Below, piece after piece: positions 10,364 through 61,477 of a stretch of 64,000 nt of DNA. The position numbers and the translations under genes were made by a program. Under the pieces are notes generated by a model. That model was not told the origin of the DNA. It saw only the letters and a program-made list of their open reading frames with translations, and did no database searches. The stretch is from Rhodocyclaceae bacterium (lineage in GTDB: Bacteria > Pseudomonadota > Gammaproteobacteria > Burkholderiales > Rhodocyclaceae), in NCBI GenBank assembly GCA_006218025.1, contig VBWA01000021.1, positions 1 through 64,000 on the forward strand. Reading direction: 5' to 3'. The first letter of the stretch is position 1. Every line of letters starts with the position of its first letter.

Positions 10364-10387
10364 GCCGTGTCACCAGCGCCGACTTTT
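10364..10387 (+). repeat. Dispersed repeat copy, intergenic
   Basis: GCCGT, four variable bases, then CCAGCGCCGACTTTT, between fbpA and the CDGSH gene. One of nine exact copies of the 12-mer CCAGCGCCGACT in the window. Confidence 0.75.
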
Positions 10388-10496
10388 ACCGGCCATTGTT
10401 CGCCGATCCGAAACAGTCAATTCCGGGTCTGTCGTTTCGCGTTTGAAGGATTGCCCCTATAGTGCGCTTTCCCCACAACGACCACCGGAGAACGCC

Positions 10497-10736
10497 GTGT
10501 CCAAGCCTGAAATCGCCTCAAAAACACCCTTCGCCATCAACGTGGAAAAGGGCAAGGACTACTACTGGTGCGCCTGCGGCAAGAGCAAGTCGCAGCCGTT
10601 TTGTGACGGCAGTCACAAGGGTTCCGAATTCACGCCGGTCAAGTACACCGCCGAGGAAAGCAAAGCCGCGTATTTCTGCGGCTGCAAGCAGAGCGGCAAC
10701 GGTGCGCTGTGCGACGGCACGCACAAGAGCCTTTAA
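10497..10736 (+). CDS. CDGSH-type iron-sulfur protein
   Basis: 79 residues from a GTG with GGAG 6 bases upstream. Two CDGSH-like motifs, each with three Cys and one His: CACGKSKSQPFCDGSH near residues 22-37 and CGCKQSGNGALCDGTH near 62-77. Each is expected to bind a labile [2Fe-2S] cluster. Paired-motif bacterial members are small soluble proteins with roles in iron/redox handling. TATAGT lies about 35 bases before the start. Its stop overlaps that of the convergent fbpB. Position inside the fbp locus suggests a link to iron supply. Confidence 0.88.
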   Translation: MSKPEIASKTPFAINVEKGKDYYWCACGKSKSQPFCDGSHKGSEFTPVKYTAEESKAAYFCGCKQSGNGALCDGTHKSL

Positions 10737-13535: not shown

Positions 13536-14257
13536 TCCCCTGGCTGCCGCTGGAGCCTGTATTTCCTGCGCTTGAAACAGCGCTGGCCGAACCCAACGGC
13601 CTGCTCGCCGCCGGCGGCGACCTCAGCCCGCAACGAATCCTCTCCGCCTATCGGCGCGGCATCTTTCCATGGTATTCGACGGGCGAGCCGATCCTCTGGT
13701 GGAGCCCCGATCCGCGCATGGTGCTCGTCCCCGACGAGTTGAAGATCTCCCGCTCGCTGGCGAAGACACTGCGCAATACCGACTATGAGGTGCGCCTCGA
13801 TACAGCGTTCAGCGCCGTCATCCATGCCTGCGCCGGCAAGCCGCGCGAAGGCCAATCCGGTACCTGGATCACCCGTGAAATGCAGGCCGCCTATCGCGAG
13901 CTGCACCGGCTCGGCCATGCGCATAGCGTGGAGACATGGGTCGATGGCAAGCTCGCCGGCGGCCTCTACGGCGTCGCGATTGGCCGGGCCTTTTTCGGTG
14001 AATCGATGTTCGCCGATCAGCGTGACGCCTCGAAAATCGCGCTCGTCCATTTGTGCGCTTACCTCAAACAGCGCGGATTCGGCATAATCGACTGCCAGAT
14101 GGAAACCGCTCACCTCGCCTCTCTCGGTGCTAAACCGATTCCCCGCAGCGACTTCGCCGCGCGGCTGGTTGATCTGTGCGTGCGAGACGATGCTCCGGGA
14201 CACTGGCCGGCCGCAGCGATTGACGGTCATTTCAGGCGGCACATGACGCAACCATGA
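13532..14257 (+). CDS. aat: Leucyl/phenylalanyl-tRNA-protein transferase
   Basis: 241 residues, typical length. It transfers Leu or Phe from tRNA to N-terminal Arg/Lys of proteins, marking them for ClpS/ClpAP. Family signatures: [36 protein letters not shown] and [16 protein letters not shown]. It overlaps fbpC upstream and bpt downstream by 4 bases each (ATGA), so all three are probably one transcript starting at the Fur-boxed promoter. Confidence 0.95.
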
Positions 14258-14982
14258 CCCACCTGCGCGACCTGCCGCCCTTTCCGCTGTTGCAGTTCTA
14301 TGCCACGGCGCCTTACGGCTGCTCCTACCTGCCTGGCCGCATTGCCCGCTCCCAGGTTGCCACGCCGACCCACCTGATCGACAGCGCCACCTACAGCGAA
14401 CTGGTGCGCGCGGGATTTCGCCGCAGTGGCGTGTTTACCTATCGCCCCTATTGCGATGCCTGCCGCGAATGCCAGCCGGTGCGGCTCAACGTCGCCGAGT
14501 TCGTGCCCAACCGAAGTCAGCGCCGCGCCCTGACCCAGCACGCGGCGCTCACCGCGCGCGAATGCAGCCTGACGTTTCGCGAGGAGCACTATCAGCTCTA
14601 CCAGCGCTATCAGGCGGCCCGTCATTCCGGCGGCGGCATGGATCAGGACAGCCGTGATCAGTACGCCCACTTTCTGCTGCAAACCCATGTCGACAGCCGG
14701 CTGATCGAATTCCGCGAAGAAGGCGTGCTGCGCGTCGTCAGCATCATCGACGTGCTGGCCGACGGGCTCTCGTCGGTCTACACCTTTTATGATCCCGACA
14801 TTCCCAATGCCAGCTACGGCACCTTCGCCATCCTCTGGCAAATCGCTCAGTGCCAGCATGTGGGCCTGCCCTGGCTGTATCTTGGCTACTGGATTCGCGA
14901 CAGCCGCAAGATGACCTACAAGGCCCGGTTCCGCCCGCTCGAAGCCCTGCGCCACGGCGAGTGGCAGCCCATAGAAGAATAA
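14254..14982 (+). CDS. bpt: Aspartate/glutamate leucyltransferase (Bpt, arginyltransferase family)
   Basis: 242 residues. It transfers Leu to N-terminal Asp/Glu; the bacterial family is ATE-like. The N-terminal cysteine region YGCSYLPGR then [12 protein letters not shown] matches the conserved Cys cluster, and TFYDPD and LYLGYWI.DSRKM.YKA.F.P are the C-terminal signatures. It pairs with aat, the usual betaproteobacterial arrangement. Confidence 0.93.
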
Positions 14983-14994
14983 GTCCGGCTTAAC

Positions 14995-15017
14995 AGTCGG
15001 CGCTGGCGACACGGCGA
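14995..15017 (-). repeat. Dispersed repeat copy, intergenic
   Basis: Reverse-strand copy of GCCGTGTCG then CCAGCGCCGACT, in the 45-base gap between bpt and the convergent lipoprotein gene. Confidence 0.75.
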
Positions 15018-15027: not shown

Positions 15028-17178
15028 TTATCGCGCGGTCGCGGTCTCCCGCCGCCGATAGCCGCGCCAGGCCGGCCATATCGCTGCGCCGAGCATCAGC
15101 ACCACCAACAGCAAGGGCCAGACCACCGGACGGTTCCACTCGGCACGACGCTGCTCGCGCAAGGAAGCATCGACGCGCTGATACTTGAGCGTGTTGTGGC
15201 CGACCTTGCTCGGCTTTCTGTTGGTCAGCCAGGCGTGGCGCAAGGTGTAGTCCTTCGGATGAAAGCCCCAGATCCAGGGCGCGTCCTGACGCAGTATGGC
15301 GGTCATGCGATCAATCAGTTGCTGGCGCTCTGCGCCGCTTTCCATCGCCTTCATGCGCTCGAACAGCTGGTCATATTCCGGGTTCTCGTAGTTCGCCGCG
15401 TTCTCGCCCTGGTGCCTGACCTTGCCCTGCTTGCCATAAAGCAGAAACATGAAATTCTCGGGATCGGGGTAGTCCGCATTCCAGCCGAAATAGAACAGCT
15501 GCACCGCCCCCTTGCGCACCTTTTCCTGAAAGCGGTTGTAGTCGGTGCTGCGTACCACCAGCTGCGTATCGATCTTGGCAAACTGCTTGTTGAGCCAGTC
15601 GATGCGCGCCTTGGCGCCGACACCGGTGGCGGTGGTATCGAGATTGATGACCAGCGGCTCGCCGGTTTTGGCATCACGTCCGTTGGGCCATCCGGCCTCG
15701 GCCAGCAAGCGCTTCGCTTCGGCGATCGACTTGCGCCGGGGATGCCCATCAACCCAGTCGTACATGCCCGGATTGATGCCTGCGGCACCCTCGCGATAAC
15801 CGAAGATGCCGGGCGGGATCGGTCCCTGCGCCGCAACGCCGCGACCGTTCTGGAAGATCGAAATGAACTCTTCCTGATCGAGGGCGATGGAAATCGCCTG
15901 GCGCAGTTTGCGCGCGCTTTCCGCCGTTTTTGGATCAATGCCGCCAACCAGCGGGTCGAGCCAGTTGAAACCCATGTACATGCTCGATGTCGCCACCGAG
16001 GTGGTCAAGGAGATCCCTTGCGCGCGCATGTCGTCGGACAGGGTGATCTCGCCCGCGGTCACCTGTACGGCCTGATCGAAAGCGTCCGAAGAGATGCCCG
16101 AAGCATCGTAATAGCCCTGCAGGAACTTGTTCCAGTAGGGAATCTGCTCCTTCTCGCGACTGAACACCACCTTGTCGATGAAAGGCAGCAGCTTGCCGCA
16201 ATCCTTCATCAGGCCTGCCCCGGCATCTTCTGCCTCGCCTTCGCAGGGATAGGTTTCCTGGCGGAAATTCGGATTCCGCTCCAGCACCATGCGCGCATTG
16301 GGATTGTTCTCGGTCAGCATGTAGGGCCCGGTGCCGATCGGATACCAGTCCAGCGTCAGGTTCTTCTCGGCCATGCCCGGCTGACTGTGGAACTTGTCCG
16401 CTTCCCATGGCATGGGTGCAAAGAATGGCATCGCCAGCCAATACAGGAACTGCGGATACTTGCCCTTGACCCTAATCCGGTAGCGGTAGCGATCGACGAC
16501 CTCGGCGCCCTCGAGACGATGCTCGCGCAAGTCGATCCACGGCTTGTCCTTCTCCGCTTTCAAACGCCTGGCGAAATCGCCGAGACCGACAACGTAGTCG
16601 TCCATCAGACCAAAAATCGGCGAATGCAGGCGCGGATGCGCGAGACGCTTCAGGCCATAGACGTAATCGTCAGCCGTCAATTCCCGCGTGTCACGCTGCG
16701 TGAATTCGCTCAGCGTACTGAAGCGATCCAGATCCTGCGGGGACAGCGCGTGATAGACAAATTCACCCGTTGCGCCCGCCGCCTTGCGGGCGAAGGCCGG
16801 ATGCGGCTGATAGCGGATGCCCGGCTTGAGCGTGATCGTATAGTCGGTGAAGGCGATCCTTGCCGCATCCGCATCATTCGGCAATACGCGTCCCTGTGCA
16901 TCCAGGTAGCGTGCTTGCGGTACTGCCTCGGCCGTGGCGGCGACCAGCGCATAAGGGCGCTTGAGATAGTGATACTGCAGCGGCGGTTCATAAATCTGCG
17001 CCGTAAACGTGATCTCGTCTTCGCTGTACGACTGTACCGGATCGAGATGCTTGGGCCGTTCGGTGAAGGCGCTGTACAGAATGTTCCTGCCGCGATCCTC
17101 CGCCGGATAGGGGTCATTCCATGCACTGCCGCAGGCGGTCAGCAACAGGACAAGAAGACAGGAGAATACGCTACGCAT
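15028..17178 (-). CDS. ABC transporter family 5 solute-binding lipoprotein (peptide/OppA-like)
   Basis: 716 residues from the ATG at 17178, the start that gives a proper lipoprotein signal (LLLLTAC, Cys near residue 16). The body is a family 5 binding protein, as for oligopeptide/dipeptide transporters. Odd points: it is longer than usual, and it carries a C-terminal hydrophobic segment (VVWPLLLVVLMLGAAIWPAW) followed by a basic tail, a second anchor that ordinary OppA proteins lack. No permease or ATPase gene is adjacent. Many betaproteobacterial relatives are annotated simply as ABC substrate-binding proteins. Confidence 0.8.
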   Translation of the reverse strand: MRSVFSCLLVLLLTACGSAWNDPYPAEDRGRNILYSAFTERPKHLDPVQSYSEDEITFTAQIYEPPLQYHYLKRPYALVAATAEAVPQARYLDAQGRVLPNDADAARIAFTDYTITLKPGIRYQPHPAFARKAAGATGEFVYHALSPQDLDRFSTLSEFTQRDTRELTADDYVYGLKRLAHPRLHSPIFGLMDDYVVGLGDFARRLKAEKDKPWIDLREHRLEGAEVVDRYRYRIRVKGKYPQFLYWLAMPFFAPMPWEADKFHSQPGMAEKNLTLDWYPIGTGPYMLTENNPNARMVLERNPNFRQETYPCEGEAEDAGAGLMKDCGKLLPFIDKVVFSREKEQIPYWNKFLQGYYDASGISSDAFDQAVQVTAGEITLSDDMRAQGISLTTSVATSSMYMGFNWLDPLVGGIDPKTAESARKLRQAISIALDQEEFISIFQNGRGVAAQGPIPPGIFGYREGAAGINPGMYDWVDGHPRRKSIAEAKRLLAEAGWPNGRDAKTGEPLVINLDTTATGVGAKARIDWLNKQFAKIDTQLVVRSTDYNRFQEKVRKGAVQLFYFGWNADYPDPENFMFLLYGKQGKVRHQGENAANYENPEYDQLFERMKAMESGAERQQLIDRMTAILRQDAPWIWGFHPKDYTLRHAWLTNRKPSKVGHNTLKYQRVDASLREQRRAEWNRPVVWPLLLVVLMLGAAIWPAWRGYRRRETATAR

Positions 17179-17201
17179 GACGGCGAGTTTATCTGATCCG
17201 C

Positions 17202-17207
17202 TATAAT
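17202..17207 (+). promoter_or_regulatory. -10 element upstream of fabI
   Basis: TATAAT 31 bases before the fabI start, with AAGGAAA as ribosome site. No good -35 is visible. Confidence 0.45.
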
Positions 17208-17237
17208 CCGCCGTCTGATTCAACCAAGGAAAAAGCG

Positions 17238-30629: not shown

Positions 30630-30631
30630 GT

Positions 30632-46606: not shown

Positions 46607-46630
46607 TTTTTGAATATCCTGAGTAAGTTG

Positions 46631-47203: not shown

Positions 47204-47227
47204 GGGGATTTCCGATTCGACTCAGGG

Positions 47228-47608: not shown

Positions 47609-47717
47609 GGCATCCGTCCTTGTGTTCCGACGATGCCTATTCAACTCCGCGCGTGTAACAGATGTGCCCTAAAGCCGATGCGTTTTGTAAGCAATCGTTA
47701 CGCGACTCTCGATGCGG

Positions 47718-47822: not shown

Positions 47823-47853
47823 ACAGAAATCTCCTCTTGCTGGACGAAACCTC

Positions 47854-48267
47854 TTACGCGTACAGAAATCCGAGGCGTTTTGCCGCTTTCGCCAGGGCCT
47901 TGTCCTGGGTTGCAAGCGGACACTTCAACCGTATCGCCAATTCGAGATAGGCGGCATCGTAAGTGGTGATGCCGTGGGATTCAGCCAGTTCGGCTATTTC
48001 AACCAGCGGAACCACCCTGCCGTCGGTCACCAGCGGCAGGCGCGAGGCGCGCGCCAGCAGGCCCTTGGCATCCTTGGCGGCGACGCGCTTGCGTCGTTGC
48101 GCGGTGAGCAGAACATTGGCGAATTCGAGATGCCATAGCGCAGGAACGTGCAAGGAGTAACGCGGCAAGGCATCAAGCAGGCTTTCGCTCCATGCGTTCG
48201 CCTCATCGTCCAGGAACCAGGGAATCGCCGCCGAACAGTCAATGACCAAGGGCGGCTTGGCACTCAC
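47854..48267 (-). CDS. VapC-family PIN-domain toxin (second pair)
   Basis: 137 residues. PIN acidic residues Asp near 10 in VIDCSAAIPWFL, Glu near 48 in LWHLEFANVL, Asp near 104 in TTYDAAYLELA. It overlaps the antitoxin stop by 4 bases. Confidence 0.9.
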   Translation of the reverse strand: MSAKPPLVIDCSAAIPWFLDDEANAWSESLLDALPRYSLHVPALWHLEFANVLLTAQRRKRVAAKDAKGLLARASRLPLVTDGRVVPLVEIAELAESHGITTYDAAYLELAIRLKCPLATQDKALAKAAKRLGFLYA

Positions 48268-48515
48268 CGGCGCCCCGCCGCGATCAACTCGGTCAGGGTG
48301 CTGCCAGGTTTTGCGCCGCGATCAACGCCACGACGAAACGCCCGCAACTCGGCCGTCCAGTCTGCAAGCGCCGAAGCGTCGGACGATGCCTCGGGCGCCA
48401 CCAGGCGCGCCACAGGTTTGCCGTGACGTGTCACCAATACTTCCTCGCCCTGCGCGACGCGCTCGACAAGCTGCGACAACTGGGCCTTCGCTTCAAAGAT
48501 GCCGACGCTCAACAT
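48264..48515 (-). CDS. Phd-family antitoxin (second pair)
   Basis: 83 residues. The N-terminus MLSVGIFEAKAQLSQLVERVAQG and RHGKPVARLVAP show the Phd fold; the Ala/Trp-rich tail binds the toxin. It is under a palindromic operator 33 bases upstream. Confidence 0.9.
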   Translation of the reverse strand: MLSVGIFEAKAQLSQLVERVAQGEEVLVTRHGKPVARLVAPEASSDASALADWTAELRAFRRGVDRGAKPGSTLTELIAAGRR

Positions 48516-48547
48516 GAGAATGCTCCTTGCTCCGGGATTTACAGTAT

Positions 48548-48572
48548 AACCAGATTTCGCATAATTCTGGTT
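48548..48572 (-). promoter_or_regulatory. Operator/promoter of the second toxin-antitoxin pair
   Basis: Inverted repeat AACCAGA..TCTGGTT with near-complete symmetry; on the minus strand TATACT overlaps its downstream edge. Confidence 0.6.
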
Positions 48573-48649
48573 ACTTTAGATTCTGTCCTTTGCGCTGGCG
48601 TTTCACCCCCCCCTCGGCATCCGCCTGCGCTGGTGTTAAATTTGGCGGC

Positions 48650-49738
48650 ATGCAGTCCAGCCCTTTCAACCGCCGCCTCGCCTGGTTCATCCTGTTGCAG
48701 TTCCTCAGCCTGCCGCTGGTCGGCTATGCCCTCGGCGGCGCCACCGGCATGCCTTGGCTGTGGAACCTGCTGACACCGGTCTGGGTCTTCGTCGTCTTCC
48801 CGCTAATCGACACGCGGGTCGGGCTCGACACCCGCAATCCGCCGCCGGCGCTCGAACCCGCCCTCACCGTGGAGCCGGGCTACCGCCTGCTGGCTTTGGC
48901 GGCCCTGCCCGCCCATGCCCTGCTGCTGCTCTGGGGCGGGCCGGCCTTCGTCGCGCTTGCCGGCGAGAGCCCGATGGCCGCCGCCGGCCTCGGCCTGTCG
49001 GTCGGCATCGTCGGCGGCGCGATCGGCATCACCTATGCGCATGAGCTGATCCACAAGCCGACGCCGCTGGAACGCAATGCCGGCGGCTTGCTGCTGGCGC
49101 TGGTCGCCTATGGCGGCTTCAAGGTGGAGCATGTGTTCGGCCACCACGTCGATGTCGCCACGCCGCGCGATACCTCGACGGCGCGGCTGGGGCAGTCGGC
49201 CTATGCCTTTTTGCTGCGGGCGATGGTGGTCAATCCGCTGCGCGCCTGGCAACTCGCCGGCGAGCGCTTGCAGGCGCGCGGACTTCCGCCGTGGCACTGG
49301 CGCAACGAGATGTATCTCTGGCACGGCCTGACGCTGCTGCTCGCCACTGCCATGTGGGCCTGGCTGGGCATCGCCGGCCTGGTGTTCTTCGTCATGCAGG
49401 CCCTGGTCGCGATCACGCTGCTGGAACTGGTGAACTACATCGAGCACTACGGCCTGTTGCGCGGCCGGCGCCCCGACGGCAGCTACGAGCGGGTGACGCC
49501 GCGCCACTCATGGAACGACAGCCACCGCCTGTCCAACCTCGTGCTGCTCAACCTGCAGCGGCATTCGGACCACCACGCCCATGCCGCGCGGCGCTACCAG
49601 ATCCTGCGCCACCACGACGATGCGCCGCAGCTGCCCACGGGCTATGCCTCGCTGGTGCTGCTGGCGCTGGTGCCGCCTCTGTGGCGACGGCTGATGGACC
49701 CGCGGGTGGCCGCCTGGAAGGCAGCCGCCGCTGCCTGA
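48650..49738 (+). CDS. AlkB-like integral-membrane di-iron monooxygenase
   Basis: 362 residues from the ATG at 48650. Six or so membrane helices and the His boxes of alkane hydroxylases: HELIH near 133, EHVFGHHVDVATPRD near 162, EHYGLLR and LQRHSDHHAH near 300. Compared with AlkB, box 2 reads EHVFGHH where EHNRGHH is usual. It hydroxylates alkanes or similar hydrophobic substrates using electrons from a rubredoxin; none is encoded nearby. No alkane-regulator gene flanks it. Confidence 0.85.
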   Translation: MQSSPFNRRLAWFILLQFLSLPLVGYALGGATGMPWLWNLLTPVWVFVVFPLIDTRVGLDTRNPPPALEPALTVEPGYRLLALAALPAHALLLLWGGPAFVALAGESPMAAAGLGLSVGIVGGAIGITYAHELIHKPTPLERNAGGLLLALVAYGGFKVEHVFGHHVDVATPRDTSTARLGQSAYAFLLRAMVVNPLRAWQLAGERLQARGLPPWHWRNEMYLWHGLTLLLATAMWAWLGIAGLVFFVMQALVAITLLELVNYIEHYGLLRGRRPDGSYERVTPRHSWNDSHRLSNLVLLNLQRHSDHHAHAARRYQILRHHDDAPQLPTGYASLVLLALVPPLWRRLMDPRVAAWKAAAAA

Positions 49739-51127
<1,389 letters not shown>

Positions 51128-51153
51128 CTTGATGCGCGCCGCCGCCTCGTCGA

Positions 51154-52293
<1,140 letters not shown>

Positions 52294-52325
52294 GGGAAAT
52301 GCCTCAAGAAGATATCATTGGGCAC

Positions 52326-52354
52326 AACATGGGGATTCCCGGACCGATTTCAAT
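52326..52354 (-). promoter_or_regulatory. Heat-shock (sigma-32) promoter of clpB
   Basis: Minus strand: ATTGAAA, 13 bases, CCCCATGTT, a near-perfect sigma-32 site, 33 bases before the ATG. Confidence 0.8.
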
Positions 52355-52386
52355 CCTCGGACTTGAGTATGCGCTCAGGTATGCCC

Positions 52387-53370
52387 CTAGCGTCGTCCCT
52401 GCTGGCTCTGGAAGTACACCACTTTACGGGCCCGCATGACTTCGCCCAGCGGGCGATGATCCATCAGCGCGCTCCAGGGATCGAAGGCAGCAGCCTCGAT
52501 GACCGCCGCCAGTTCCTCACCCGCCGCAGTTTGCGGATCCTGCGCAGGCAGGGTCAGCACGGCCACCGTGACATAGGGCGCGACGTCTTCGGGCCAGTCC
52601 ACCGAGGCATCCTCGATCGGAGTCCGCGCTTCATCGACGAAAAACTGCAGTTGCAGTTCGAAACGCAGCGGGCCGCGTGCCAGATGGCTCCTGAAATCCC
52701 CCGCCCAATCCGCGGCGGCGCCGGGCCTGACCTCGTCGCTGGCCGGCAGCAAACGCACGCGCGAGGCATAGGGACCGCAGGCAATCGGCGCCGCCGAATA
52801 GAAGCGCTCGGTGGCAAAGCCGGTAAAAGGCCGGTTGAAGGTTTGGGCGAAGCGCTTCATCATCTTCAGGGCGCCGAGGAAGCCGTAGCGCGAAACCAGG
52901 TAGCCGAGCAGCGCGCCCGGCCCCCTGGTCAGGCTTTTCACCAAGCCGACGAATTCGTCGGCGCCGGCAAAGGCAAAGGCCGGATGATTGATCAGCAGGA
53001 AATCCTGGCTCGCGGCGGGGCCTGAGCCCAGCGCGCCGGGGCCGCTGACGCCGCGGACCTTGATCGCGAAGCCGCGCACGTCGGGCTTCCTGTCAGCCTC
53101 ACGATCGGTGCCGCCATTGGACAAGCGAATCCAGGTCTCGTAGGTGCCGGGCTCGGCAAACAATCCATGCCGCACATGGCCGGGCAAACCGGACAAGACT
53201 TCGAGGCTGCCTTGCAGGCCGAGTTGCTGCTTGCGGTGCAAGGCACGACCCTTGCCGAACTTCGCCGACTTCGCGGCCTGAATCTCCTTGAAGTCGCTCG
53301 CATAACCGGCATGGCGTTCGGCTTCGTCGGCCGCAATGCTTTCCTTCCATTCGGTGCTGGGCGTAGCCAT
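52387..53370 (-). CDS. Catalase-like heme-domain protein
   Basis: 327 residues from the ATG at 53370 (GGGAGAG upstream). It has catalase-core landmarks: the N-terminal RALHRKQQLGL, GTYETWIRLSNGG, DVRGFAIKV and INHPAF. It is a shortened monofunctional catalase relative (SrpA/catalase-like, about 300 residues against 480+ for catalase), so peroxidase rather than full catalase activity is likely. The downstream DUF1304 gene lies on the same strand in front of it. Confidence 0.8.
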   Translation of the reverse strand: MATPSTEWKESIAADEAERHAGYASDFKEIQAAKSAKFGKGRALHRKQQLGLQGSLEVLSGLPGHVRHGLFAEPGTYETWIRLSNGGTDREADRKPDVRGFAIKVRGVSGPGALGSGPAASQDFLLINHPAFAFAGADEFVGLVKSLTRGPGALLGYLVSRYGFLGALKMMKRFAQTFNRPFTGFATERFYSAAPIACGPYASRVRLLPASDEVRPGAAADWAGDFRSHLARGPLRFELQLQFFVDEARTPIEDASVDWPEDVAPYVTVAVLTLPAQDPQTAAGEELAAVIEAAAFDPWSALMDHRPLGEVMRARKVVYFQSQQGRR

Positions 53371-53390
53371 CGCGTCTCTCCCTGAAAGGT

Positions 53391-53724
53391 CTAAGCGGCC
53401 AGCACTGCCAGGAGCGCCAGCAAGGCCGGGCCGCCCTGAACGTAAAGAATGGTCTTCTTGACCGTGAGACCGCCGTAGATCCCCGCGACAATGACGCAAG
53501 CAAGGAAGAAGGCCTGGATATGGACTCCCGCGGCGGCGTTCGGATAAATCAGCCCCCAGACCAGTCCCGCGGCGAGAAAGCCGTTGTACAGCCCCTGATT
53601 GGCGGCCAGCACCTTCGACGCCTCGGCGCGCTCGCGGCCTGGTCCAGAGAAACATCTCGAGGTAAAGAAAATACAAATGTTCCAGCGCAACCAGCAGGAC
53701 CAGGGCGATGCCAAGAATTTTCAT
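53391..53724 (-). pseudogene. DUF1304 membrane protein, frameshifted
   Basis: Starts at ATG 53724 with AAGGAAAA upstream: MKILGIALVLLVALEHLYF and LYLEMFLWT, the DUF1304 start. After FLWTR the frame is lost; the remainder is in another frame from about 53640 onward: ASKVLAANQGLYNGFLAAG, LACVIVAGIYGGLTVKK. Family members have about 10 more residues at the join, so a short out-of-frame deletion is inferred. Otherwise an inner-membrane protein of unknown role with four helices. Confidence 0.8.
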
Positions 53725-53810
53725 GATTTTTCCTTTTCACCTAAAGCATCCGCATCAAGTATGCTTCACCCGGTGGCTCAGGACAACATTTAATGCTGAA
53801 ACGATGCTGT

Positions 53811-53824
53811 TTGATTTAAGTCAC
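53811..53824 (+). promoter_or_regulatory. FNR/Anr-like site upstream of the phasin gene
   Basis: TTGATTTAAGTCAC matches TTGATnnnnATCAA at 8 of 10 positions, about 60 bases before the start. Confidence 0.4.
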
Positions 53825-53883
53825 AATCTCGTAAGCCATTGGTGGTAGCTTGTTTCTTTTGGATTAATCACAGGAGAGAAATC

Positions 53884-54402
53884 ATGGCAGGCAAGGTCGA
53901 ACAATTCAGCGAATTGCACCGCAAGAACATGGAAGCCGCCATGCGCATGGCACAGCTTTCGATCGAGAATTCCCAGCGCATCATGGCGCTGCAATCCGAA
54001 CTGGCGAAAGAGATGTTCCAGAGCGGCGTGGAAAATGCCAAGGCGCAGACCGGCGCGCGCGATCCGCAGGCGATGATGCAGTTGCGCACCCAGTACGCGC
54101 AGGAGACCACGCAGCGCATGGTCGCCGCCGCCCAGCAAATCGCCGAGATCAGCAACTCCGCGCGGTCCGAGTTCGCCCGCCTGGTCACGGAGCAACTGGC
54201 CTCCGGCAGTCAGGAGATGACCGAAGCCATGCAGACCTTCATGAAGTCCCTGCCGGGCCAAACGCCGAACATGATGGAATCATTCCAGCAGGCGATCGCT
54301 ACCGCCAACCAGGCCTTCGAGCAGATTTCGAAAGCTTCGACCGCTGCCATGAGCAGTGTCGGCGAGACGGTGAAGAAGGCCGGCGGCGCCAAGCGCAAGT
54401 AA
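53884..54402 (+). CDS. Phasin family protein
   Basis: 172 residues from the ATG at 53884 with GGAGAG upstream; the frame runs upstream but that part is outside the family. Phasin core (EQFSELHRKNMEAAMRMAQLSIENSQRIMALQ), Gln/Ala-rich helical, Lys-rich tail (KKAGGAKRK). It coats polyhydroxyalkanoate granules. No PHA synthase gene in the window. Confidence 0.9.
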   Translation: MAGKVEQFSELHRKNMEAAMRMAQLSIENSQRIMALQSELAKEMFQSGVENAKAQTGARDPQAMMQLRTQYAQETTQRMVAAAQQIAEISNSARSEFARLVTEQLASGSQEMTEAMQTFMKSLPGQTPNMMESFQQAIATANQAFEQISKASTAAMSSVGETVKKAGGAKRK

Positions 54403-54425
54403 GAATCTGCGCAACTCCCATCGGA

Positions 54426-54455
54426 CGGCTGGCCGCGCAAGCGGTCAGCCGTTTT
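54426..54455 (+). terminator. Rho-independent terminator after the phasin gene
   Basis: CGGCTGGCCGC and GCGGTCAGCCG arms, GCAA loop, TTTT. Confidence 0.85.
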
Positions 54456-54533
54456 CCCTGGATTGCCCTGGAACCAGACCGATGGGTCGAACTGAAGCTT
54501 TGCAGTCGGCCGGGCGGAAACCGATGCTCTTCG

Positions 54534-55397
54534 TCAATTGGCCGAACGGCAATTCTGCGATTCGAATCTCGCGACATGGACCCGGTTCTTTCCTGACCGC
54601 TTGACTCCGTACATGACACGGTCGGCGGCATCGATCAACTCGTCAACGTCCGTCGGGGCGTGCGAGCAGGCGACGGCACCAATACTTGCCGTAACCTTGC
54701 ACCCTGCTGTCCTCATGCCATCCTCTATGGCTCTTCGCAATCGTTCAAACGTCTCGGTGGCAGCTCCGACGGAGGTATTCGGGAGCAGTACGGCAAATTC
54801 GTCGCCGCCAAGTCGGCTCAGCAAGTCGCTGGTCCGCAACACGCTTTGCATAGTGTGCGCAGCGATCTGGAGCACCGCGTCGCCACGCCGGTGTCCCTGC
54901 GTGTCGTTCACCAACTTGAAATCGTCGAGGTCTATATATGCCATCACGATCGGGCTGGCGTCTCGTTGGCACAAAGCAAGTACATGCGGTGTTTGCTCGT
55001 GGAACGCGCGAGAATTCAGGAGGCCGGTGAGCCGGTCCTCCCGGGCCAATTCACTTTCCAGAACCTTCGACGCACGAAGGTCAGAAACCAGCTTGGCGAC
55101 CAGCAGGAAGGCAAAACCCTGGACAAGCATGTTCCACCCCCAAATCCAATTCGAACCGTAACGCAATCCCGCTTGGTGGTTGGATAGTGCCCAAAGCGCT
55201 GTACAGATCACAGCTGTGACCAGGGCATCCTTGCGCTCCAGATTTGTCGCCGCTATGGCGATTGGAATGAAATAAAAAGGATATAGCCGAACTTCACTGC
55301 CCGTAAAGAAATCGACGACCGCCACGCCAAGTGTCGCCGCCGCAACCACGGCGACTGACCCACTTCTTGCATATCGAAGATGGAGTTTCGAAATCAT
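54534..55397 (-). CDS. Membrane-anchored diguanylate cyclase (GGDEF)
   Basis: 287 residues. About four N-terminal membrane helices (roughly 12-110, MASE-like), then a GGDEF domain with LSRLGGDEFAVLLP (A-site intact) and IDLDDFKLVNDTQGHRRGD. No obvious I-site RxxD before it. It makes cyclic di-GMP, the second messenger that controls LapA-type adhesins in known systems. Alone, between the phasin and moaE genes. Confidence 0.9.
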   Translation of the reverse strand: MISKLHLRYARSGSVAVVAAATLGVAVVDFFTGSEVRLYPFYFIPIAIAATNLERKDALVTAVICTALWALSNHQAGLRYGSNWIWGWNMLVQGFAFLLVAKLVSDLRASKVLESELAREDRLTGLLNSRAFHEQTPHVLALCQRDASPIVMAYIDLDDFKLVNDTQGHRRGDAVLQIAAHTMQSVLRTSDLLSRLGGDEFAVLLPNTSVGAATETFERLRRAIEDGMRTAGCKVTASIGAVACSHAPTDVDELIDAADRVMYGVKRSGKNRVHVARFESQNCRSAN

Positions 55398-55533
55398 CTG
55401 TTGCTTCGCGTCAGTTCGGATTTGTGGCGGGGAAGCAGTGTGCGAGGAATCGTAGCCAGCAAGCTGACCGCTTCAGATCGGTGACCATCAGATTACACGA
55501 AACGAGTCCCGCACCGCCCTTCGGTTTCCCGCG

Positions 55534-56043
55534 TTACTTGCCGCCTTCCCAGCGCCCGGCGGCCTGGTCGTCGCTCTCGCGGGCATCGACCCAGCGGCCG
55601 CCTTCCGGGGTTTCTTCCTTCTTCCAGAAGGGCGCCCGCGTCTTCAGATAGTCCATGATGAATTCGCAGGCGGCGAACGCCTCGCCGCGATGCGCCGACG
55701 AAACCGCGACGAAGACGATGCGATCGCCCGGCACCAACCTGCCGACGCGATGGATCACACGCACGCCGTAAATGTCCCAGCGCCCGCGCGCCTCCGTGAC
55801 GATGGCTTCGAGGGCCTTCTCGGTCATGCCGGGATAGTGTTCGAGGGTCATGGCCTGCACTGCCGCCGTTACCTGCCCGCGAAGCGGATTTCCAGGTACG
55901 CAAAGCGAGTCAGCGCCGACTGTCTTGTCGGCCCGCACCAGGCCGACGAAACTGGCTACCGCCCCGACGTCGTCGCGTCCCGCCGACAGCGCGGCGATCT
56001 CGGCGCCCGCATCGAAATCGGCTTCCTGCACGCTGACCGACAT
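55534..56043 (-). CDS. moaE: Molybdopterin synthase large subunit with an in-frame insertion
   Basis: 169 residues. MoaE core: AVASFVGLVR, then AMTLEHYPGMTEKALEAIV, VIHRVGRLVPGD, SSAHRGEAF and LKTRAPFWKKEETPEG with the catalytic Lys residues. Between VRADK and AVQAMTLEHYPG lies VGADSLCVPGNPLRGQVTA, about 17 residues absent from E. coli MoaE; it is encoded by the 49-bp repeat also found in moeA. With MoaD it converts cPMP to molybdopterin. It directly follows moaD (1-base gap). Confidence 0.93.
   Translation of the reverse strand: MSVSVQEADFDAGAEIAALSAGRDDVGAVASFVGLVRADKTVGADSLCVPGNPLRGQVTAAVQAMTLEHYPGMTEKALEAIVTEARGRWDIYGVRVIHRVGRLVPGDRIVFVAVSSAHRGEAFAACEFIMDYLKTRAPFWKKEETPEGGRWVDARESDDQAAGRWEGGK
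55872..55920 (-). repeat. 49-bp repeat, moaE copy
   Basis: 43 of 49 bases identical to 56672-56720, translated in the same frame to give LCVPG.PLRGQ. It ends in CAGCGCCGAC, the core of the dispersed repeat. Confidence 0.85.
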
Positions 56044-56044
56044 C

Positions 56045-56299
56045 TCAGCCGCCCGTAACCGGAGGGAAAAACGCCACTTCGTCGCCGGCCTTGACGGGTG
56101 CGTCAGAACCGACCATCTGCTGATTCACGGCCGAACGCAGATTCTTGGTCGACGCCAGCGCCGACCAAGGCTCCCCGCGCGCGGCGAGGTGGTTCCGTAG
56201 CGCCCCGACCGTACCGACCTCAGCGGGCAGCGCCAAGGCTTCGGAACCCACACCGAGCGCTTCGCGCAAGCCGGCAAAGAAAAGTACTTTGACCATCAT
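56045..56299 (-). CDS. moaD: Molybdopterin synthase small subunit
   Basis: 84 residues, ubiquitin-like fold ending in the essential Gly-Gly (FFPPVTGG), which carries the thiocarboxylate sulfur. N-terminus VKVLFFAGLREALG. It lies 7 bases after moeA and 1 base before moaE. Confidence 0.95.
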   Translation of the reverse strand: MMVKVLFFAGLREALGVGSEALALPAEVGTVGALRNHLAARGEPWSALASTKNLRSAVNQQMVGSDAPVKAGDEVAFFPPVTGG

Positions 56300-56306
56300 C
56301 GATTCA

Positions 56307-57626
56307 CTATAGCAGTTCGCAAAACGGCAGGAAACGCACCGTGTCGCCGCGCCGGATGGCTTGCCCCGGCGGATTGTCGATCAGCCCGTCGGCCCAGGTG
56401 CAGGACGTCAGCACGCCGGAACTCTGGTTGGCGAACAGTTCCAGCCCGCCTTGCGCATTGACGCGGGCGCGCAGAAACTCGCGGCGCGGATCGCCCTTGC
56501 AGTCGAAATCGGCGCGCAGCGATTGTGCACGCGGCGTCACGCTCGATGTGCCCTGCGCCTTGAGGATGAAGGGCCGCACCAGCATGATGAAGGTGACGAA
56601 GCTGGAAACGGGATTGCCCGGCAGGCCGATGAAGGCAGCAGCAGCCTCAGTTGCCGTCTCAGTTGCCGTTGCCTGCCCGCGAAGCGGAATTCCAGGCACG
56701 CAGAGCGCGCCAGCGCCGTCCGCAGGGGATACCGCCCCCGGCTGCGCCGGAGGCATAACTTCTCGCCGGACTGAACCGAACGCCAGCGGCTTGCCCGGCT
56801 TGATCGCGATCTTCCACAGGTCGAGCGAGCCCTCGGCCTCGACCGCGGGCTTGACGTGATCTTCCTCGCCCACCGAAACGCCGCCGCTGGTGAGGATCAG
56901 GTCATTGGCGGCCGCGGCCTCGCGCAAGGCGGTACGCGTGGCATCGCGCGAATCGGGCACGATGCCGAGGTCCGCCACCTCGCAGCCGAGCCCTTCGAGC
57001 AGCGCGCGCAGCGTGTAGCGGTTGGAGTTGTAGATGCCGCCCGGCTTGAGCGGCTCGCCGGGCATCGCCAGTTCGTCGCCGGTCGAAAACAGCGCGACCC
57101 GCAGGCGGCGAAACACCGTGAGCTGAGCCGCGCCGACCGATGCGGCGACGCCGACGTGGGCTGCCGACAAGCGCGTTCCGGCGGCCAACACCTCGGCTCC
57201 GGCCGCGATGTCCTCTCCGCGACGGCGGATCCACTCGCCGGGGCGCGGCACATGATTCACCGTCACGCCGCCGTTATCCACCGCGCACAACTCCTGCATC
57301 ACCACGGCGTCGGCACCGGCCGGCAGCGGCGCCCCGGTGAAAATCCGCGCCGCCGTGCCTGCAGCCAGCACATGGCCGACGCTGCCCGCCGGAATGCGCT
57401 GGCCCACGACAAGCCGCGTACCGGCGGCGGGGACGTCGGCGCAGCGGACTGCGTAACCGTCCATCGAAGTGTTGTCCAGCGGCGGCACGTCGATGGTCGA
57501 ATGCAGGCCTTGCGCCAGGATCCGCCCCGCCGCTGCGTGCGTCGGCACGGCCTGCGTCTCGCGCACCGGGTTGGCGCCGGCCAGCAGCCGCCCCAGGGCC
57601 TCTTCGAAATCAAGCATGTCTCGCAT
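56307..57626 (-). CDS. moeA: Molybdopterin molybdenumtransferase with an in-frame insertion
   Basis: About 439 residues from an ATG at 57626 that overlaps the mobB stop. MoeA core: PPLDNTSMDGYAV, GAPLPAGADAVVM, ILTSGGVSVGEEDHVK, IAIKPGKPLAFG and GLPGNPVSSFVTF. Between LAFG and FIGLPGNP there are about 40 extra residues compared with E. coli, including GALCVPGIPLRGQATA from the 49-bp repeat and a short TET/ATE repeat (12-bp tandem). The insert sits close to the active-site loop. It inserts molybdate into molybdopterin-AMP. Confidence 0.93.
   Translation of the reverse strand: MRDMLDFEEALGRLLAGANPVRETQAVPTHAAAGRILAQGLHSTIDVPPLDNTSMDGYAVRCADVPAAGTRLVVGQRIPAGSVGHVLAAGTAARIFTGAPLPAGADAVVMQELCAVDNGGVTVNHVPRPGEWIRRRGEDIAAGAEVLAAGTRLSAAHVGVAASVGAAQLTVFRRLRVALFSTGDELAMPGEPLKPGGIYNSNRYTLRALLEGLGCEVADLGIVPDSRDATRTALREAAAANDLILTSGGVSVGEEDHVKPAVEAEGSLDLWKIAIKPGKPLAFGSVRREVMPPAQPGAVSPADGAGALCVPGIPLRGQATATETATEAAAAFIGLPGNPVSSFVTFIMLVRPFILKAQGTSSVTPRAQSLRADFDCKGDPRREFLRARVNAQGGLELFANQSSGVLTSCTWADGLIDNPPGQAIRRGDTVRFLPFCELL
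56672..56720 (-). repeat. 49-bp repeat, moeA copy
   Basis: 43 of 49 bases identical to 55872-55920 in moaE and in the same frame (CVPGIPLRGQ). Confidence 0.85.
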
Positions 57627-58135
57627 CAACGAAACCCCATGTGGCGCAGGATGAAATCGGCAATCGCATCGCGATCGTTGAGATCGAGCACCGGCAGCTT
57701 GGTCTGCTGCGCCACCACTCCGGGCTCATCAGTCGCAATCGCCACGATGGTCTCGACGCCGCTGCCGGCGATCAGCGGCTTGCCGACCGAAGGGCGATGC
57801 ACTTCCAGCTTGGGGATCGGCGTGTATTTGAAACCCTCGACCAGCACCAGGTCGCACTCGGAAAAGCGCGCGATCTGCTCGTCCAGCGAAGGCTCCGGCG
57901 CGCCGCGCAGTTCATGCATCAGCACCCAGCGCTGCTCGGAAATCAGCAGCACCTCGGCGCAGCCCGCCTCGCGCAGGCGGTAGGAATCCTTGCCAGGATG
58001 GTCGATGTCGAAACGATGGTGCGCGTGCTTGATCAGCGAAACGCGCAGGCCCGTCGCCGTCAGGCGCGGGATCAGCGCCTCCAGCAACGTGGTTTTGCCC
58101 GAGCCGGAATAGCCGGCAAGACCGAAGGTTTTCAT
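57626..58135 (-). CDS. mobB: Molybdopterin-guanine dinucleotide biosynthesis protein MobB
   Basis: 169 residues from the ATG at 58135. P-loop GYSGSGKTTLLEALI, VSLIKHAHHRFDIDHPGKDSYR and LVLVEGFKYTPIPKLEVHR are MobB signatures. A GTP-binding adapter in bis-MGD cofactor synthesis; no mobA is in the window. Overlaps both neighbours. Confidence 0.93.
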   Translation of the reverse strand: MKTFGLAGYSGSGKTTLLEALIPRLTATGLRVSLIKHAHHRFDIDHPGKDSYRLREAGCAEVLLISEQRWVLMHELRGAPEPSLDEQIARFSECDLVLVEGFKYTPIPKLEVHRPSVGKPLIAGSGVETIVAIATDEPGVVAQQTKLPVLDLNDRDAIADFILRHMGFR

Positions 58136-59442
58136 GTCGAAGGCACCGTCAACACGGGAGCGAAGCCGCCGCCGGGCGTGCGAAAGTTGGTGGTCTGTCC
58201 CTGCCACAACCGCGCCGCGATCAACTGCACATGCCCGGCATAAACGTAGTTGCGCAGATCGAGCTTGAGCTCTACCGGCGCCTCGTCCACCCGCAGCGTG
58301 CGCAAGGACGGCGGCACCAGCGCCTGCGCGATGTAGTTGCCGGCCAGCACTTCGTCGAAGACGCGCTTGGTGATCTTGTCGCCGCGATACGCGGCCTTGG
58401 AGCCGTAACCCGCCGCCGGCTTGAAGAAGAGTTGCTTGCGCCGCGCCCACAAGTCGTCGGCGTGACCGGGTACGACCAGCTCGGTGCGCGGAATCTTGTT
58501 CGCCAGCGTGGCGCGCGTCTCGGCATCGACGCCCCATCCGGCCAGCAGCGCGTCATCGCACAAGGCCACCAGGTTGCGCTTGTCGGCGTACAGGGCGTGC
58601 GCCTGCGGGTGCGGCGTGATCAGCGCCGCATCGGTGAGCCACGCTTCGCGCAACGCTGCATTGGCCGGCGCTTCCAGCGCGAAATCAGTGAGCCGGTTGT
58701 AGACCAGGTCGATGCGCGAACCGCCATGCCCACCGTACCAAAGCGCGCCGTCGCGCAGGGCCAGTTCCCGCGGATCGCAGATCACCGCCTCGATGCCGGC
58801 ATTCTCGAACAGGCGCTGGAACAGCACGAACTCGGGATAGAGGTATTGCGTCAGCGGCGCTTCGTCGACGATTGCGATGCGTTTCGGCGTATCACCAGCG
58901 CCGACTTTCCCGGCAACCGCGGCAGCAAAGGCGCGCCACTCGGCACGGAACATTTCGAGGAACAGGTTCTCCGGCGTTTCGGAGCCGAGATCGCCGGGCA
59001 GCAGCGCTTCGACGTCATCGCAGCAGGCCTTCTGCGCGCGCGCCAGCAGGGCATTGAGCAGGCCGCCGCCAGCATTGGTATTGATCTCGATGAGTTGCGG
59101 CCCGGTATTTCCTAAATGAAAGTCGTAGCCGAGGAAAACCCCGGGCGCCGCCGACCGATGCCGCGCACTCTCCGGCGCCCAGGCCAGCACATGCTCGCGA
59201 TACGCGGGCAGCGCGACGACGCGCTCGACGGCGGCGACCAGGCGCGCCATGCGCTGCACGTGCTCGGCGCTGACGAAGGCCACCGAATCCGAGAACAAGT
59301 GCGGCCGCCCCGCCATCACCTCGGCGTGAAAGCCAGGGCTGACGCGTTCGAGCTCGGCCTCCAGCCCCGCGCGGTCGAGCGAAACGCACTGGCACCCGGC
59401 ATTCAGCCGGTCGGCGAGTTCGATGCTGTAGTGGTTACTCAT
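58132..59442 (-). CDS. Conserved ATP-grasp-like protein of unknown function
   Basis: 436 residues. LIEINTNAGGGLLNALLARAQ, KPAAGYGSKAAYRGDKITKRVF and YIAQALVPP resemble the substrate and ATP-binding loops of ATP-grasp ligases, but no specific family is recognised. It overlaps dinG (8 bases) and mobB (4 bases), so it is in the middle of the operon. The loop GKVGAGDT comes from a dispersed-repeat copy. Confidence 0.7.
   Translation of the reverse strand: MSNHYSIELADRLNAGCQCVSLDRAGLEAELERVSPGFHAEVMAGRPHLFSDSVAFVSAEHVQRMARLVAAVERVVALPAYREHVLAWAPESARHRSAAPGVFLGYDFHLGNTGPQLIEINTNAGGGLLNALLARAQKACCDDVEALLPGDLGSETPENLFLEMFRAEWRAFAAAVAGKVGAGDTPKRIAIVDEAPLTQYLYPEFVLFQRLFENAGIEAVICDPRELALRDGALWYGGHGGSRIDLVYNRLTDFALEAPANAALREAWLTDAALITPHPQAHALYADKRNLVALCDDALLAGWGVDAETRATLANKIPRTELVVPGHADDLWARRKQLFFKPAAGYGSKAAYRGDKITKRVFDEVLAGNYIAQALVPPSLRTLRVDEAPVELKLDLRNYVYAGHVQLIAARLWQGQTTNFRTPGGGFAPVLTVPST
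58886..58908 (+). repeat. Dispersed repeat copy in the ATP-grasp-like gene
   Basis: GGCGTATCA then CCAGCGCCGACTTT, coding KVGAGDTP on the minus strand. Confidence 0.7.
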
Positions 59443-61405
59443 GCGGCAATTCTACCGGCAGCGCACGGAGGAAGAAGTTTTCGACCTCGACCACATCGCG
59501 CGTGCGGCGCATCGGCGGCAGCGAGCGCCAGATGGCTTTGCCGTAGGGCTTGCCGGTCAGGCGTGGGTCGCAGATCATCAGCACGCCGCGGTCGTCCTCG
59601 TCGCGGATCAGCCGGCCCGAGCCCTGCTTCATGCTGATCACCGCGCGCGGCAACTGGTATTCCATGAAGGGGTTGCGCCCCGCCGCGCGCAGGCGGTCGA
59701 TGCGCGCCGACAGCACCGGGTCGTCCGGCGGCGCGAAGGGCAGCTTGTCGATCACTACCAGCGACAAGGCCTCGCCGCGCACATCGACGCCCTCCCAGAA
59801 ACTCTGGCTGGCGACCAGGATCGCATTGCCGAGAAAGCGGAAGCGCTCCAGCAATTCCGTGCGCGAGCCTTCGCCCTGCATCAGCAGCGGCAGTTCGAGG
59901 CCTTCGGCGGCGAGCTTTTCCTGCAGCAGCTCGCGGATGCGGCGCATCGCGCGCAGCGAAGTGCACAGCACGAAGGCGCGCCCGCCCGAGGCGCGGATCG
60001 CCGGCCAGGCGGCTTCCGCCACGGCTTCCTGGTACATCGCGCTGTTGGGGTCGGGCATGCCGGTCGGCGAATACAGCAGCGCATTTTTCTCGTAGTTGAA
60101 AGGGCTGCCCCACACCGCGGTATCGGCTTCGGCCAGGCCGAGTTCGCCGCAGTAGTGCGAAAAGTTGCTGCCCACTGCCAGCGTCGCCGAGGTGAAAATC
60201 CAGGCGCGCGGATGGCCTTCCATCTGGCGCTGGAAGATCGGCGCGATGTCGAGCGGCGTCAGGTTCAGCGACATCGCCTGCGAATAGACCTCGACCCACT
60301 TCACTACATCATCACCGCCGGAAACTTCGAGATCCGCCGCGCCCCGGCGCCAGCGCTTGAGCCCCTGCGCCAGCTCCTGCGCGCGGCGTAGGCAGTTGGC
60401 CAGGCCCTCGCCGCGGTCGGCCTGGGTTTCAAGGTGGCGCCCGAGTTCCTGCACCGCATCCACCAGCCCCTGCAGGGCTGCGCCGAATTCCGCCTCGCCT
60501 TCCAGCTTCGCCGCCGGCAGGCGCAGGTTCTCGCCCTTCACCGCCAGGCGCAGGTCGCGCGCCGCCTTGTCCAGCGCCTGTGCGGCGTCCTGCAACGGCG
60601 CGTAGTCCTTCGCGGCGACGATGCCCTCGTTGCGCGTGTCGCGCGCCAGCTCGATGATCTGCGTGGTCGATACGCTCTCGCCGAAGAACAGCCCCGCCAC
60701 CTCCGGCAACTGGTGCGCCTCGTCGAAGATGATGGTGTTGCAGGCCGGCAGCAGTTCGCCCATGCCCTCGTCCTTGAGCATCACGTCGGCGAAGAACAGG
60801 TGGTGATTGACCACCACCACATCGGCCGTCAGCGCATCCTGCCGCGCCGCCAGCACGAAGCACTCCTTCACGTTCGGGCATTCCTGGCCGAGGCAGTTCT
60901 CGCGCGTCGAGGTCGCCACGCCCCACGCCGCGGAATCCTCCGGCACATCGATGCATTCGGCCTTGTCGCCGGTCCGCGTGCGTTCGGCGAAGCGCGCGAT
61001 CTTGCGCAGGTGCCCCGCTTCTTCGCGCGAAGCCAGCCGCCCGGCGCTCATCGCGTGCTCCAGGTGATAGGGACAGACGTAGTTGGCGCGCCCCTTCAGC
61101 AGCGCGATCGAGGCGCCGACCTTGAGCGCATCGCGCACCGTCGGCAGGTCGCGGTTGAAGAGCTGGTCCTGCAGCGTCTTGGTGCCGGTGGAAACGATCA
61201 CCTTGCCGCCCGAGAGCAGCGCCGGCACGAGGTAGGCGAAGGTCTTGCCGGTGCCGGTGCCGGCCTCCGTCACCAGCGCCAGATTGCCCGCGATGGCCGC
61301 CGCGATGCGCTGCGCCATCTCCAACTGCTGCGGCCGTGGGCGAAAGCCTGGCACGGCAGCGGCGAGCGGCCCCTCGGGGGCGAAGATGCGGTCAAGATCG
61401 GACAT
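59435..61405 (-). CDS. DinG/YoaA-family ATP-dependent DNA helicase
   Basis: 656 residues from the ATG at 61405; an upstream extension in frame holds a repeat and is unlikely to be translated. Superfamily 2 helicase with Walker A EAGTGTGKTFAY, DEAH in IIFDEAHQLPE, and [4Fe-4S] cysteines in NYVCPYH, NCLGQECPN and KECFV. XPD/DinG-like 5'-3' helicase for structured DNA or R-loops. First gene of the dinG-moa operon. Confidence 0.92.
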   Translation of the reverse strand: MSDLDRIFAPEGPLAAAVPGFRPRPQQLEMAQRIAAAIAGNLALVTEAGTGTGKTFAYLVPALLSGGKVIVSTGTKTLQDQLFNRDLPTVRDALKVGASIALLKGRANYVCPYHLEHAMSAGRLASREEAGHLRKIARFAERTRTGDKAECIDVPEDSAAWGVATSTRENCLGQECPNVKECFVLAARQDALTADVVVVNHHLFFADVMLKDEGMGELLPACNTIIFDEAHQLPEVAGLFFGESVSTTQIIELARDTRNEGIVAAKDYAPLQDAAQALDKAARDLRLAVKGENLRLPAAKLEGEAEFGAALQGLVDAVQELGRHLETQADRGEGLANCLRRAQELAQGLKRWRRGAADLEVSGGDDVVKWVEVYSQAMSLNLTPLDIAPIFQRQMEGHPRAWIFTSATLAVGSNFSHYCGELGLAEADTAVWGSPFNYEKNALLYSPTGMPDPNSAMYQEAVAEAAWPAIRASGGRAFVLCTSLRAMRRIRELLQEKLAAEGLELPLLMQGEGSRTELLERFRFLGNAILVASQSFWEGVDVRGEALSLVVIDKLPFAPPDDPVLSARIDRLRAAGRNPFMEYQLPRAVISMKQGSGRLIRDEDDRGVLMICDPRLTGKPYGKAIWRSLPPMRRTRDVVEVENFFLRALPVELPHE

Positions 61406-61453
61406 GGCGGGCGCGGCATGGTAGCACGCGGCGGCATGTACCCCGCCACACGC

Positions 61454-61477
61454 AAAAGTCGGCGCCGGCAATACGGC
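61454..61477 (-). repeat. Divergent dispersed-repeat copy upstream of dinG
   Basis: GCCGTATTG then CCGGCGCCGACTTTT (one change in the 12-mer), about 50 bases above the dinG ATG. Confidence 0.5.

Follow-up and report, generated by a model that had tools for sequence, protein, structure and literature searches.

A 26-bp non-palindromic DNA motif, scattered in hundreds of near-identical copies over the genome of a Rhodocyclaceae bacterium, probably acts as a DNA uptake sequence, i.e., a tag of self-DNA that is recognized at the cell surface in natural transformation; this reading is based on comparative sequence analysis. The motif was revealed in a stretch of 64,000 nucleotides of contig VBWA01000021.1 (positions 1 to 64,000, forward strand; hereafter the window), which is contig 34 of assembly GCA_006218025.1 (genome G000; 4.44 Mb, 141 contigs). 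The genome appears to belong to the genus Sulfuritalea, family Rhodocyclaceae. The motif is abundant, occurs in dialects, favors one reading frame, is conserved at orthologous sites and, among the genomes sampled, is confined to part of one family. We infer that its reader is an uptake receptor and that the repeat most probably represents a third, independent uptake sequence system, similar to the DNA uptake sequence (DUS) of Neisseriaceae and the uptake signal sequence (USS) of Pasteurellaceae. Three roles had been proposed in a preliminary description of this DNA (scraps of a mobile palindromic element, a DNA uptake-type signal and a chromosome-structuring motif), and the second of them fits best.

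In that description, nine exact copies of the 12-mer CCAGCGCCGACT were listed in the window. All of them are present, at most two bases from the starts given there, seven on the plus and two on the minus strand, and a divergent tenth copy, placed at 61454, was found at 61454–61479. The extension proposed for most copies (GCCGT followed by four variable bases) is correct but incomplete: the whole unit comprises 26 bp with the consensus TCGCCGTnyCGCCAGCGCCGACTTTC, and only one of the four bases (n-y-C-R) is truly free. The unit is asymmetric and bipartite, carries about 34 bits of information, and has its information peaks in CGCCGT, in CGCCAGCGCCGACT and in a 3′ T-tract. The conserved block extends from −11 to +14 around the 12-mer and has sharp edges (samples: G000, 464 kb; related genome G002, 400 kb). 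A search of the window with the 26-bp matrix gave exactly ten sites above 12 bits, each scoring at least 34 bits. The 12-mer itself matched 33 times with up to two mismatches, against a mean of 14.6 in shuffled sequences (none of 100 shuffles reached 33); most of these matches are weak, and the genome-wide count is the decisive figure.

This count had been suggested as a check, together with an analysis of strand and replichore bias. G000 contains 548 exact copies of the 12-mer (270 on the plus and 278 on the minus strand) versus two of the reversed pattern, which is far above expectation. With up to three mismatches to CGCCGTNNCRCCAGCGCCGACT, 812 near-copies were found versus nine for the reversed pattern. 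When 864 kb of G000 and G002 were scanned with a refined matrix, 171 sites reached 14 bits or more and 149 of them 28 bits or more, whereas an order-5 Markov control gave no site; the density is about one copy per 5 kb. No strand or replichore bias was detected. The closed 3.8-Mb chromosome of G002 carries 225 copies on the plus and 223 on the minus strand, and 20 samples of it show mixed strands, with 17 of 44 copies directed with replication and 27 against it (replication halves were judged from GC skew, and two copies of the first sample were left out). A bias suspected from a long run of plus-strand matches in G002 was ruled out by the whole counts and the sampled stretches.

Most copies lie within genes. 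Of 171 sites with scores of 20 bits or more in 884 kb of G000 and G002 (781 genes), 125 are coding and 46 are intergenic, counts that are approximate because genes were called with a home-made codon-score finder. Intergenic copies are enriched, since 27% of the sites fall on the 10% of bases that are non-coding (90% coding; G000 and G002 sample). Of the coding sites, 67 of 125 share one of the six possible frames, in antisense orientation, and encode K/R-V-G-A-G-x-T-A, while 58 use other frames; the statistics of this preference treat the sites as independent, which is partly untrue. Neighboring sites less than 120 bp apart form four pairs. Three of these pairs are inverted, with distances of 30, 64, and 113 bp between the starts. 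It should be mentioned that motif copies close to each other enclose a further repeated palindrome (ATTCCCGC...GCGGGAATGACGG) at about 124020–124223 of contig C7 (L037) and about 19405–19502 of contig C1 (L045) of G000.

Among the sampled genomes the motif is confined to part of one family. The carriers form a group of mostly freshwater bacteria. Exact 12-mers are present in all 31 Sulfuritalea genomes (20 to 548 copies); six family members outside this genus have 1–11 copies. At least 100 near-copies with up to three mismatches were found in 40 of 297 genomes of the family, belonging to eight of 68 genera (reversed control 0–16, either strand). Seven further genomes contain 26–75 near-copies and the remaining ones are near background, while the counts at up to two mismatches are 0–5 in the 242 genomes examined from the order's other families. 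The full 26-mer was detected in 78 named stretches, mostly assigned to Sulfuritalea or Rhodocyclales, some to ‘uncultured beta proteobacterium’, and four to Rugosibacter, Methylophilaceae, Burkholderiaceae, and Gammaproteobacteria. Where samples hold at least seven copies, the density is one per 2–6 kb. From G016 the motif seems to have all but disappeared, with four copies in 110 kb sampled and 101 near-copies genome-wide. A patchy loss in the genus designated g43, suggested by zero-mismatch counts, was rejected: at three mismatches 10 of its 11 sampled genomes contain at least 404 copies, and only G293 (two copies) is empty. The apparent loss at zero mismatches is due in part to the presence of other dialects.

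The motif differs between species by one or a few bases. In three Sulfuritalea genomes (the A-dialect trio G001, G015, and G027) the form CCAGCGCCAACT is present in 324, 366, and 406 copies, respectively, versus 0–10 copies in the other 28 Sulfuritalea, and the G-form CCAGCGCCGACT is present in 56, 71, and 63 copies. Further consensus forms, deduced from small samples (some of fewer than 10 copies), are ...CCaGCGtCGACTcTt in G010 (T-dialect), GTGCCGTccCGCCAGCGCCGAcTTT in G209 and G132 (genus g43), CCAGCaCCGACT in G061, cCgCCGTnTCaCCAgCGCCGACTTTt in G199, TTgCCGTAtCcCCAGCGTCGACTTTT in G098, and ACGGCGTGTcaCCAGCACCAACTGaC in G067 (49% GC). Such a switch of dialect at hundreds of scattered sites without an insertion of fixed length points to a sequence-specific reader rather than a mobile element. 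Moreover, a one-base change shared by hundreds of unlinked sites implies that the reader acts in trans and that there is a means of spreading the preferred copies.

An uptake system would provide both. DNA fragments bearing the motif would be bound and taken up preferentially, and alleles that gained the motif by mutation could then spread via recombination. The expected outcome would be hundreds of near-consensus copies on both strands, wherever the proteins tolerate them. A shift in the preference of the reader would lead to genome-wide rewriting of the motif and, in this way, to species dialects. As for the transformation machinery, 29 of the 31 Sulfuritalea genomes have a ComEC match over the cut-off, DprA was found in 13 of 15 genomes tested, and prepilins were present in all six contrasting genomes examined, three Sulfuritalea each having 11–17 matches.

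The known uptake sequences offer a close comparison. USS show a preference of reading frame, as does the motif described here. Inverted pairs acting as terminators are said to be frequent in DUS and USS. As with the motif, DUS occur as hundreds to thousands of near-identical copies in part of one family, with species dialects differing by a few bases, according to the relevant passages of PMC3630211. The same passages state that in Neisseriaceae the dialects are conserved within species and that the tree of ComP is largely congruent with dialect, with deviations; ComP, a minor pilin, is given as the DUS receptor in the corresponding section of PMC12616744. In contrast to the 12-mer DUS, the motif is about 26 bp long and bipartite, has a 3′ T-tract and is unrelated in sequence; it is also sparser (one per about 5 kb), has few inverted pairs, and its candidate pilin receptor (see below) has no ComP among its PDB matches. 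In its length, its discontinuity, its conserved core and its A/T tracts it resembles USS, described in the pertinent part of PMC12616744 as long discontinuous motifs of two types, with a conserved 9-nt core and AT-rich tracts, up to 32 nt in total. The USS receptor is not established according to that part, which names ComN/PpdA as predicted. The motif differs from USS in sequence and in the class of bacteria. Just the two known families of uptake sequences are cited in the section of PMC4212676 that treats them.

The best candidate for the receptor, judging from sequence comparisons and with many exceptions, appears to be a lone minor pilin. It is 82–84% identical between G000 and G002 versus 39–48% to the motif-poor G016. 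Other pilins were rejected, since several of them are as divergent between G000 and G002, which share a dialect, as elsewhere (27–42%), and another prepilin is 80–85% alike in G000, G002 and also in motif-poor G016. The candidate was found in 53 of the 59 genomes searched. In thirteen other Sulfuritalea and two genomes of the genus designated g88, all with the canonical motif, the allele shares 69% identity or more with that of G002. The alleles of the A-dialect trio are 96–98% alike. The pilin of the T-dialect genome G010 is nearest to those of the trio (78–79%) and only 48–49% identical to those of G000, G002, and G007, while housekeeping DNA does not group G010 with the trio (87% identity to G000, 84% to G001, and 85% to G015). 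The pilin tree mixes genera. In its predicted structure the protein is pilin-like (mean predicted local distance difference test score 73.9), but PDB offered no useful match, the best fold match being a type IVb pilus (E 0.42); no ComP, FimT or DNA-binding homolog was found among the sequence and fold matches in PDB.

The gene is often bracketed by the motif itself. The comparison covered 52 pilin loci in 51 genomes. A copy lies at the prepilin leader in 23 of the loci (in two cases outside the −10 to 60 window used for the baseline, owing to the start codon chosen), an inverted copy at the stop codon in 21, and both in 10. In 750 sampled genes, one leader copy, 15 inverted copies within 30 bp of the stop codon, and no gene with both were found. 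In the eight loci whose genomes are poor in the motif or lack it (G016, G031, G032, G034, G035, G036, G076, and G293), no leader or stop copy is present. It can be tentatively suggested that the receptor of this independently evolved third system, in Rhodocyclaceae, is encoded by a motif-bracketed prepilin cassette, itself taken up and moving across species and genera, whose swap would switch or abolish the dialect; we regard this scheme as possible rather than probable. In addition, the candidate gene contains an in-frame stop in G098 (contig C87, 2019–2774), a genome relatively poor in near-copies (145). Two adjoining matches to the candidate, besides another allele elsewhere, were found in G022 (C21), G014 (C129), and G005 (C282), as if extra cassettes were kept.

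Several observations weigh against the uptake reading or its candidate receptor. Copies are sparse in the stretches read from two genomes of motif-bearing genera (one in 44 kb of G305 and three in 44 kb of G099), and inverted pairs within 120 bp are few (three among 171 sites). Of the 15 genomes tested for DprA, G000 and G001 gave no match. ComEC, considered as a correlate of the motif, was rejected because almost all members of the family and order have it, so that it does not discriminate. Reports of transformation in Sulfuritalea or Rhodocyclaceae, or of an uptake sequence there, were not found in the open-licence PMC literature, nor did the letters of the motif match anything in it. A wider query on Rhodocyclales, Burkholderiales and Betaproteobacteria likewise gave no paper with the term ‘uptake sequence’ among the 10 of 75 matches listed. 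As for the pilin, 10 of 44 loci from motif-bearing genomes, including that of G002, have neither a leader nor a stop copy, and shared descent inflates the bracket counts given above. Several genomes rich in the canonical motif have divergent alleles: those of Sulfuritalea G011, G022, G024, and G028 are 37–54% identical to that of G002, and those of G091, G153, G218, G236, and G165 from other genera are well below 60%. No match to the pilin was found in the canonical Sulfuritalea G003, G009 (99% complete), G019, G020, and G023 in the search of 59 genomes, and G067 has a dialect of its own but only an N-terminal pilin match. Finally, genuine phage contigs also carry copies of the motif.

The strongest competing explanation is a binding site of a protein that organizes or segregates the chromosome or acts in recombination, with dialects formed by co-evolution of protein and site. 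Known sites of such proteins are the FtsK orienting polar sequences (KOPS), Chi, and the SlmA-binding sites (SBS). The motif is likewise dispersed, conserved, sequence-specific and genome-wide, it has dialects, and a DNA-binding reader is required in any case. However, the equal strand counts in G002 (225 and 223) and the 17 versus 27 of 44 copies relative to replication show no bias, in contrast to KOPS and Chi, and the unit, asymmetric and with about 34 bits in its 26 bp, is far longer than those sites. The proposal of a chromosome-structuring motif is thus weakened, and we consider it unlikely.

A second alternative takes in the phage copies. The motif could mark self-DNA and spare it from an intracellular defense nuclease, and phages bearing it would evade this nuclease. 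The motif was found in at least 120 stretches of viral contigs, one of which contains capsid, protease, and tail genes and clearly represents a tailed phage, so these contigs are not simply misfiled host DNA. A search with the capsid protein of a motif-bearing phage gave eight loci: five, with capsids at least 94% identical, carry 1–3 copies each in 14–17 kb, and three more distant ones (70–76%; L438–L440) carry none, two of these being only 1.8 and 5.4 kb long. In the five closely related tailed phages (L433–L437, IMG/VR) the host-type copies are all on the plus strand of the loci. On the other hand, when loci were selected by a single match, additional copies occurred less often in viral DNA (one per 20 kb) than in genomes (one per 6 kb), although the patterns used to select the two sets differed in strictness. 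Besides, no defense gene was linked to the motif, and no search aimed at such genes was made. Prophages could acquire copies through ordinary recombination with the host; such exchange between prophage and chromosome would account for the phage copies, evasion of a self/non-self check being the alternative. The defense mark thus seems improbable, more so than the chromosomal protein.

Still less credible are remnants of a mobile or palindromic repeat, of the type of repetitive extragenic palindromes (REP) or Rickettsia palindromic elements (RPE), inserted in and between genes. The motif resembles REP and palindromic intergenic repeats in being dispersed and in its high copy number of nearly identical copies, its sites are indel-prone, and intergenic copies are enriched (46 of 171). 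Yet it is non-palindromic, 125 of the 171 sampled copies are coding, and one base changed in concert in three species. Orthologous sites were also informative. The region 43000–61500 of the window was mapped in 17 relatives and 20 stretches were compared. Of 228 aligned site/species pairs, derived from 20 source sites so that many represent the same locus from different species, 127 were occupied, eight intermediate, and 93 empty. At the empty pairs the length changed by −39 to +27, with 13 zero changes and only nine near 26; hence no insertion of constant length was revealed, and the sites lie in variable, indel-prone segments. Alignment of the host genes with repeat-free orthologs had been recommended in the preliminary description. 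Some aligned relatives indeed lack the motif at the sites starting at 44391, 50746, and 58884; at 45187 some copies are degenerate but every aligned relative retains the motif. Genomes of other genera were aligned at sites 50746 and 58884 only. The former has a clear copy in eight of 11 aligned Sulfuritalea and none in the four genomes of other genera, and the latter is empty in all three genomes of other genera. At the position orthologous to 58884–58909, a palindromic REP-like element (GTAGGAGCGAGCTTGCTCGCGA...) replaces the motif in the same coding region in G010 (L270) and G025 (L276).

A coincidence at the level of protein or codon usage (a common VGAG-type peptide) would fit the 67 of 125 coding sites in that frame, but with 46 of 171 sites intergenic, 58 of 125 coding sites in other frames, and reversed and Markov controls near zero, its probability is negligible.

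The ten copies in the window illustrate these features. The earlier division of the nine exact copies into two intergenic and seven coding ones is borne out, and the proposed VGAG.T(A) coding holds for five of the seven, which give [K/R/E]VGAGxT[A/P]. The intergenic copies are located at 10362–10387 (plus strand, 40.3 bits) and at 14992–15017 (minus strand, 39.1 bits). The latter is flanked by two convergent genes whose ends are 9 and 10 bp away and which encode an arginyl-tRNA-protein transferase family protein (14254–14982) and a solute-binding protein (15028–17223). Two plus-strand copies lie within a squalene/phytoene synthase family gene at 26202–27203 (26930–26955, 36.9 bits; Pfam PF00494, previously called hpnC) and within hpnE at 28011–29423 (28599–28624, 34.8 bits; TIGR03467). 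Five copies are antisense to their genes: 34175–34200 (plus, 36.1 bits) in a histidine kinase gene (34143–35150, minus strand), coding EVGAGATA; 44391–44416 (minus, 34.3 bits) in an acyl-CoA ligase family gene (43036–44574, plus strand), coding KVGAGATA; 45187–45212 (plus, 37.3 bits) in a gene similar to major facilitator superfamily transporters (44561–45796, minus strand), coding RVGAGGTA; 50746–50771 (plus, 38.7 bits) in a clpB-family open reading frame (ORF; 49739–51127, minus strand), coding KVGAGGTA; and 58884–58909 (plus, 37.3 bits) in an ORF without an assigned family (58132–59442, minus strand), coding KVGAGDTP. The divergent copy at 61454–61479 (minus, 34.9 bits), with the core CCGGCGCCGACT, lies near the start of an ORF for a YoaA-type DNA repair helicase (59435–61498, minus strand; NF053712). 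The clpB-type gene (49739–52293, minus strand) consists of two ORFs in different frames, 49739–51127, corresponding to the C-terminal half of ClpB, and 51154–52293; a frame break or a sequencing error is therefore possible. The window genes at 36145–36453 and 42360–42686 share diverged direct repeats with 71–78% identity and possibly encode paralogous domains.

If the motif is indeed an uptake sequence, natural competence would be predicted for Sulfuritalea and its relatives. Uptake-sequence systems would then evolve repeatedly, also outside animal hosts, with a third, unrelated motif in environmental bacteria. The dialects and receptor alleles of these bacteria would offer a fresh natural series for testing how uptake specificity evolves and how it limits gene flow.

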